Shown: in pieces, positions 17,565 through 18,488 of the stretch
Position numbering within the stretch: position 1 is the stretch's first letter
Layout: each line of letters starts with the position of its first letter
From: Sutcliffiella sp. FSL R7-0096
GTDB taxonomy: Bacteria; Bacillota; Bacilli; Bacillales; Bacillaceae_I
Assembly (NCBI RefSeq): GCF_038595065.1
Contig: NZ_CP152003.1
Span: 2,956,001-3,020,000, forward strand
Reading direction: 5' to 3'
Length of the DNA stretch: 64,000 nt
Program-made: the position numbers and the translations under genes
The notes under the pieces: model-generated
Told to the model about the DNA's origin: nothing
What the model saw: only the letters and a program-made list of their open reading frames with translations
The model's database searches: none

Positions 17565-17816
17565 ATGAAGACACTATTGGAATGGATTTTGTGATGAAAG
17601 TGTCTTCATAAGGTGCATGAAGACACTATTGGTGTGGATTTCACGGTGAAATTGTCATCATAAGCTGCATGAAGACACTATTGGTGTGGATTTCACGGTG
17701 AAAGTGTCTTCATAAGCTGCATGAAGACACTCTCGGGATGAATTTCCACATGAAAGTGTCTTCATAAGCTACATGAAGACACTCTCGGGATAAATTTCCT
17801 CATAAAAGTGTCTTCA
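17565..17816. repeat. Five tandem 52 bp units of hairpin-forming sequence
   Basis: Units start with ATGAAGACAC at 17565, 17617, 17669, 17721 and 17773, exactly 52 bp apart. Most units end in GTGTCTTCAT, complementary to their start, so each can fold into a hairpin. The short linker AAGCTGC between units also lets GTGTCTTCAT pair with the next unit's ATGAAGACAC (10 bp arms, 7 base loop). The middle of the unit varies between two types (ATTGGTGTGGATTTC and CTCGGGATGAATTTC). The array fills most of the gap between the PepF-like gene and msrA, and I see no gene in it. Confidence 0.9.
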
Positions 17817-17858: not shown

Positions 17859-18488
17859 CTACCATTTCAATTGATTCACTAATGATACTAGTTTCTCAGC
17901 TTCTTCTCCCGGCCATTGCATGATCTCTTTTTTTAAAGCAGAAAGGGTACCATATCCTTTTACAAAGCTGTTTAACCTCGCTACTATAGTTGCGTTGTTA
18001 AATGCCTCCTCAGTAAGGAAGTAATCTCTTAGCTTTTGGGTCGCATTTGAATATCTTTTCAGGTAATATTTCTGGTGTCTTTCTTCTGCAAGTGTGAAAT
18101 GAGCAAGTGGACCCATTTCTGTTCCTATTGAATGAGAAATTGTTACTTGTATTTCTTGCTTTATTTTCTCTAGGACTTCTTTTTGAAATTCATCATGATA
18201 TAAAAATATGGATAGATATTGCCTGCCCTTATAATTTATGCGACTGGAATTGTGTGAGCTCCAAAAGTGACGGACAATTTCATCAAATGATATTTGGGTA
18301 GGATCAAAGTCTATTTGTAGACATTCGGTGTGATCTGCCATTTGTTTATAGGTAGGTGTAGGGGTGGTGCCACCTGCGTATCCCACTCTTGTGCGGATGA
18401 CTCCTTTTATATACCCGAACCGGGCATCTGTGCCCCAGAATCAGCCCATGCCAAGAGTGGCGGTTTGGAGGTTGTGGTGGTTAGTCAT
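17859..18488 (-). CDS. msrA: Peptide methionine-S-sulfoxide reductase MsrA with in-frame UGA at the catalytic cysteine
   Basis: Reduces methionine-S-sulfoxide in proteins. Translation from the ATG at 18488 (AAAGGAG eight bases upstream) gives MTNHHNLQTATLGMG, then UGA (18443-18441), then FWGTDARFGYIKG and a continuous MsrA sequence to 17859. The family motif is GCFWG, so UGA replaces exactly the catalytic Cys (residue 16 of about 209). Everything else is intact, including RVGYAGGTTPTPTY and HTECLQIDFDP. Just after the UGA the RNA can form ATGCCCG/CGGGTAT with a GGU-containing tip 20 bases downstream, resembling a bacterial SECIS. It is therefore either a selenocysteine MsrA or a point-mutated pseudogene; without readthrough only an inactive fragment from GTG 18386 could be made. 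Confidence 0.75.

Follow-up and report, generated by a model that had tools for sequence, protein, structure and literature searches.

Selenocysteine (Sec)-containing MsrA is a known selenoprotein family (PMC9312934, PMC13188914), and an MsrA selenoprotein is also listed for Syntrophobacter (PMC1794560). The closest described system for the gene reported here is CoMsrA (PMC4333827, PMC4479559). For the Bacillales, three selenoproteins in three families were on record in 2006 (PMC1794560). According to a 2026 review, selenoproteins are rarely retained by aerobic bacteria, and the substitution of Cys for Sec is rare and documented mainly for FdhA and SelD (PMC13188914); in a survey of 2016, Sec use was not biased in this way with respect to oxygen (PMC5029168). 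Our literature search found no paper describing a Sec-MsrA in relatives of Bacillus, and the accessible part of PMC12013277 holds nothing on MsrA beyond a reference.

We analysed a 64,000-nucleotide stretch of the genome of Sutcliffiella sp. FSL R7-0096 (NZ_CP152003.1, positions 2,956,001 to 3,020,000; hereafter the window), which carries an msrA gene with one in-frame UGA. Comparison with related genomes indicates, with a probability that we put at about 96%, that this UGA is read as Sec and that the gene encodes a CoMsrA-type selenocysteine methionine-S-sulfoxide reductase.

An msrA gene with UGA at the catalytic codon

The msrA frame comprises 209 codons followed by TAG, and the TGA at codon 16 is its sole internal stop (Table 1). 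Two observations of the initial annotation hold: the frame is intact apart from one UGA, and the UGA sits exactly at the codon of the catalytic Cys (GMG-U-FWG). The ATG follows a Shine–Dalgarno-like motif. Were the UGA taken for a stop, the gene would be truncated, and the longest open reading frame left in the same frame would be a fragment of 175 codons that starts with GTG at 18386. Translated with Sec at codon 16, the protein matches Pfam PMSR (E = 1.7e-39) and the NCBIfam msrA model TIGR00401 (112.3 bits, cut-off of 108.1), and its closest named relative is a Sutcliffiella horikoshii record (91% identity). It also partly matches NF041383, the VPGUxxT thioredoxin-like (seleno)protein, type 2 (E = 3.1e-10; 40.2 bits, cut-off of 275). 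Immediately downstream of msrA lies a tandem array, at least three units of which are inverted repeats whose arms match exactly (ATGAAGACACT...GTGTCTTCAT).

Table 1. Positions of msrA, its parts and other features of the window and source genome
Feature	Position	Strand	Basis
msrA coding sequence with putative Sec codon	17859..18488 (ATG at 18488, TAG at 17861-17859)	-	Translation with TGA as U; Pfam PMSR and NCBIfam msrA; family orthologues
UGA codon 16, predicted Sec at the catalytic position, GMG-U-FWG	18441..18443	-	TGA in 14/14 family and 47/56 order-level orthologues
MsrA catalytic domain, residues 9-147	18048..18464	-	Pfam PF01625
Putative C-terminal domain region	17862..18056	-	phmmer match to 4lwj and kin, residues 4-208; boundary from PMC4333827
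Shine–Dalgarno-like AAAGGAG, 8 nt ahead of the start codon	18497..18503	-	Sequence; present in 11/13 genus copies
SECIS-like hairpin with a 7-bp stem (18427-18421 paired to 18417-18411) and the loop GUU (18420-18418)	18411..18427	-	Fold, covariation, not retained in Cys copies, codon null
Tandem repeat, 52-bp unit, 4.8 copies	17565..17816		
selD and SelT/W/H-family gene with in-frame TGA	L001:3390-4454 and L009:12229-12468; genome C1, about 2.293-2.295 Mb	- and +	
msrA-msrB fusion	L023:1191-1944; genome C1, about 1.225 Mb	-	GGCFWC intact; apparent frameshift after the MsrA part

Sec machinery and other msr genes in the genome

The initial annotation had left it to a search of the genome whether a Sec system exists, and selA, selB, selC (tRNA-Sec) and selD are all present in the source genome, a complete single contig of 4.9 Mb. 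Profile searches recovered selB (354.7 bits, cut-off of 242.25), selA (554.5 bits, cut-off of 267.9) and selD (TIGR00476, 414.7 bits), clustered within 5 kb, as well as a tRNA-Sec (58.9 bits, cut-off of 47) to which ARAGORN assigns the anticodon TCA. The selD gene has an in-frame TGA of its own (STKAG-U-GCKLGP), as does a SelT/W/H-family (SelW-like Rdx) gene that adjoins selA (FCMQ-U-NY), and in both genes the TGA recurs in 14/14 of the family sel loci read. UGA thereby appears to stand for Sec in no fewer than three of the genome's genes. We found neither a Sec formate dehydrogenase, the single Fdh-alpha match in the genome being under the cut-off and without a stop, nor a selenoprotein glutaredoxin, as 0/5 of the glutaredoxin-family (PF00462) matches in the genome have an in-frame TGA.

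Two intact genes for Cys MsrA (L020 and L021) occur elsewhere in the genome, neither with an internal stop. These canonical MsrA/MsrAB proteins share the PMSR catalytic domain with the window MsrA, but have the motif GGCFWC in place of GMG-U-FWG and are only 32–33% identical to it, over a match limited to window residues 7–145 or 7–151. The genome also encodes an msrA-msrB fusion (L023; Table 1). A TGA in this fusion was considered as a sign of a second Sec-MsrA and rejected: its catalytic codon specifies Cys, and the TGA lies beyond the apparent frameshift.

Conservation of the UGA codon

In a sample of 18 genomes of the family, an orthologue was found in 14 (source included), each with one TGA at the same codon; the 13 others are 58–91% identical to the window gene, and their frames are otherwise open, in place of the random frameshifts that a decaying gene might have shown on the initial annotation's view. 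selA exceeds its cut-off in exactly the same 14 genomes, and tRNA-Sec follows suit. Two of the four family genomes that lack the gene (G002, G004, G005 and G012) show just weak selA matches, of 21–22 bits.

The order sample is larger (397 genomes) and contains both states. At E <= 1e-45 we identified 56 orthologues, in all of which the codon at the catalytic place could be read: 47 have TGA and 9 have Cys. All but one of the TGA copies (46/47) are free of any other stop. The exception (L088, in genome G319) has a second in-frame stop, TAA, and seems to be decaying despite the presence of selA. Because the same TGA recurs in 47/56 of these orthologues, a sequencing error at this codon would be very unlikely. 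In the phylum sample (398 genomes), 19 matches besides the window's own comprise 16 with TGA and 3 without.

TGA at the catalytic codon goes together with selA, which was found in 47/47 of the TGA genomes and 0/9 of the Cys genomes of the order (48/48 Sec genomes if G003, from the family search, is added). Fisher's test returns p = 1.3e-10 for this association but wrongly assumes that the genomes are independent of one another; independent Sec/Cys contrasts number two, both of which agree, too few for significance (sign test, p = 0.5). selA itself is far commoner in the order than Sec-MsrA accounts for: it occurs in 180/397 genomes, 133 of which have no MsrA match at E <= 1e-45.

In each of the 10 non-UGA copies that we read, the catalytic codon is TGC or TGT. 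They represent a Cys version of this two-domain subfamily, exemplified by Domibacillus aminovorans (L056; 49% identity to the window protein); the selA survey covered the other nine. Further genomes with this form are G346, G327, G175, G247, G235, G029 and G393, along with G217 and G308, in which the copies are more distant or cut short. Unlike the window gene, the Cys-form copies mostly do not retain the hairpin described below.

A SECIS-like hairpin downstream of the UGA

The initial annotation had proposed a 7-bp hairpin, ATGCCCG/CGGGTAT, with GGU at its tip. The stem is present as described (AUGCCCG-GUU-CGGGUAU), starting 13 nt past the UGA, but the tip needs correction: the loop is GUU, at +21 to +23 (a spacing of 20 nt), and the G at +20 is paired. 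An eighth pair (18428/18410), common in relatives, is absent from the window copy. The bacterial SECIS model calls for a loop of 3–9 nt, an upper stem of 4–16 bp, a spacing of 16–37 nt, a G among the two leading loop nucleotides and an energy of at most -7.5 kcal/mol (PMC13188914). In loop (3 nt, G first), stem (7 bp), spacing (20 nt) and energy (-8.8 kcal/mol for the hairpin alone), the window hairpin fits this model (PMC13188914), as had been suggested from the letters. The folding energy of the surrounding 40-nt stretch is unexceptional when taken alone (-11.3 kcal/mol; z = -1.59; 15/200 shuffles as good), and seven uninterrupted pairs have a probability of 0.0062 given the protein and the codon use of the genus.

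Covariation was assessed on an 8-pair helix over 48 Sec copies (47 distinct), with 500 shuffles. Standard pairs fill 93.4% of helix cells, 24 cells are double changes, with three pairs changed on both sides, and the covariation score is 0.357; for each of these three measures, 0/500 shuffles scored as high, whereas the other two of the five measures fell within the shuffles (235/500 and 255/500). Control helices slid by 1–3 columns are 28–48% paired. In the same columns of the 10 Cys copies, 48.8% of cells are paired, with zero double changes. When synonymous codons were redrawn (2,000 draws), at least seven of the eight pairs formed in a mean of 5.9 of the 48 copies (maximum, 15), against 46 observed, and the Cys copies, with a mean of 3.90 pairs against 3.99 in this null, show no excess. 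On these comparative data, the hairpin is beyond chance. Three independent Sec/Cys contrasts are available for the hairpin, again too few for significance; an average of 2.8 of them agree (median p = 0.25). Among the distant TGA copies of the phylum, 4/15 reach seven pairs in the 8-pair register and the others 4–6; inner stems persist in most of the folds.

The hairpin overlaps the codons for the conserved DARFG motif, which had been raised as a caveat. The overlap is real, but it turns out to favour the hairpin, as these codons are either fixed or covarying in UGA copies but unconstrained in Cys copies. The codons GCC CGG TTC GGG are invariant in 13/13 genus copies, although elsewhere in the genus msrA genes CGG makes up 7/109 of Arg codons and GCC 15/127 of Ala codons; 5/27 of the other conserved-residue codons among the first 60 after the UGA are also invariant in the genus. 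Of the 48 Sec copies, 29 have G-C as their innermost pair, 14 have A-U and 5 have A.C. The G-C type arises from CGG (Arg23) followed by TTC (TAC in one copy) and the A-U type from CAG (Gln23) followed by TTT. Residue 23 is accordingly Arg (CGG, 29 copies) or Gln (CAG, 18 copies) in 47/48 copies, and in 14/19 of the copies without Arg23 the next codon has changed from TTC to TTT, preserving the base pair.

Alternative and preferred readings of the UGA

One rival reading is that the gene is a pseudogene in which a nonsense mutation happened to strike the catalytic codon. The two intact Cys MsrA genes could render a Sec-type copy dispensable, and the frameshifted third msrAB indicates that msr copies can decay in this genome. 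Yet the 209-codon frame is otherwise intact, the same TGA is shared across the family and most of the order, with 46 of the order-level copies free of any other stop, and the hairpin covaries; we regard the probability of a pseudogene as negligible. Stop codons are read through by ordinary tRNAs in some bacterial contexts, and near-cognate suppression might place Trp or another ordinary residue at codon 16 instead of Sec. Against this, UGA copies in the order sample occur solely where selA was found, the residue replaced is the catalytic Cys and each of the 10 non-UGA copies read has a Cys codon in its place, which makes ordinary read-through very improbable.

A further proposal would add to the Sec reading rather than replace it: the UGA would terminate translation when selenium is scarce, so that this MsrA would be switched on or off by selenium supply, with the two Cys enzymes as backup. 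Their presence makes a dispensable, selenium-gated enzyme plausible, but selenoprotein genes in general terminate at their UGA when selenium runs low, without any special regulation, and a dedicated switch seems unlikely.

Under the preferred reading of codon 16 as Sec, SelD and SelA would make Sec on tRNA-Sec(UCA), and SelB would carry it to the UGA in the ribosome, directed by the GUU-loop hairpin within the DARFG codons. At the active site, the Sec16 selenolate would attack oxidised methionine at its sulfoxide. Lacking a conserved resolving Cys, the enzyme would depend on an external thiol (a glutaredoxin-like protein, for example) or on dimerisation to recycle the oxidised selenium, in the manner reported for CoMsrA.

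Evolution of the Sec and Cys forms

The Cys copies are nested inside the Sec copies in a 71-row tree. Two Cys clades are required if Sec is ancestral and never regained, versus 15 gains of Sec if Cys is ancestral and never lost. The order-level Cys groups (f13 and f40) possibly form one clade (support 77/54), the other Cys clade (f113) being outside the order, and because of this, one Sec-to-Cys reversion within the order would be enough for the rows kept in the 71-row tree. A quick tree of 75 rows, in which long-branch rows are kept, calls for at least five Sec/Cys changes, at least three of them among order-level rows. Both trees exclude L088 and L124, which are too short, and L145, with the motif GLG-U-FW; the 71-row tree also excludes L148, L119 and L141, which have very long branches and two of which are Cys copies, and may therefore understate the number of Sec/Cys changes. 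One Cys copy (L082) still forms seven of the eight pairs, with a loop of AUU, and another (L089) retains CCCG-GUU-CGGG; these traces fit descent from a Sec form but are only suggestive.

On balance, we favour a history in which Sec-MsrA was ancestral in the two-domain subfamily of the order and gave way to Cys at least once, and maybe repeatedly, where the Sec machinery was missing, with hairpin decay to follow; while it is kept, the hairpin would constrain the protein. Less expected than the existence of the family are the frequency of Sec-MsrA among relatives of Bacillus and the apparent reversion, at least one, with hairpin decay and no selA. With 47/397 Sec genomes and 9/397 Cys genomes, the order allows the two forms to be compared directly for their dependence on selenium, the decay of the hairpin and the identity of residue 23, in relatives of Bacillus that should be easy to grow.

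Comparison with CoMsrA and other known systems

In a phmmer search of solved structures, the window protein is most similar to 4lwj (2.1e-45), with homology over its full length (residues 4–208), and also matches 4u66, 4lwm, 4lwl and 4lwk. We take these five chains to be MsrA of Clostridium (Alkaliphilus) oremlandii (CoMsrA); the length of 4u66 (209 residues) and the change of Glu55 to Asp in 4lwm fit this identity. The catalytic motif of the window protein, GMG-U-FWG, corresponds to ALG-C-FWG in the solved chains. The two proteins differ in their hosts, a relative of Bacillus and a strict anaerobe, respectively. The source organism is presumably not a strict anaerobe.

CoMsrA and the window protein both have 209 residues, the catalytic residue at position 16 and Glu55 (PMC4333827, PMC4479559), and both appear to combine a catalytic with a C-terminal helical domain, on the evidence of the alignment in the case of the window protein. 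The absence of a conserved resolving Cys, a feature of the CoMsrA type (PMC4333827, PMC4479559), extends to the Sec subfamily of the window protein. No Cys column is conserved in the Sec copies, and 17/48 of the Sec copies of the order show no further Cys (counted from eight residues before Sec; the truncated L088 is among them). These two observations make a 1-Sec mechanism, in which the reductant is external, the most likely one for the window protein. The most frequent Cys column is residue 56 (window 18321–18323), which is Cys in 22/62 aligned Sec copies and otherwise mostly Thr, Ser, Ala or Val. The window protein has this one extra Cys, beside Glu55, relative to CoMsrA, and Cys56 might serve as a private resolving residue of the window copy or modify its recycling. 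The title of a paper cited in the literature pairs CoMsrA with a selenoprotein glutaredoxin, whereas the five glutaredoxin-family matches in the source genome are without an in-frame TGA.

If the history favoured here is correct, the order holds a natural Sec-to-Cys experiment beyond the documented cases of FdhA and SelD, in bacteria usually thought to avoid selenoproteins.
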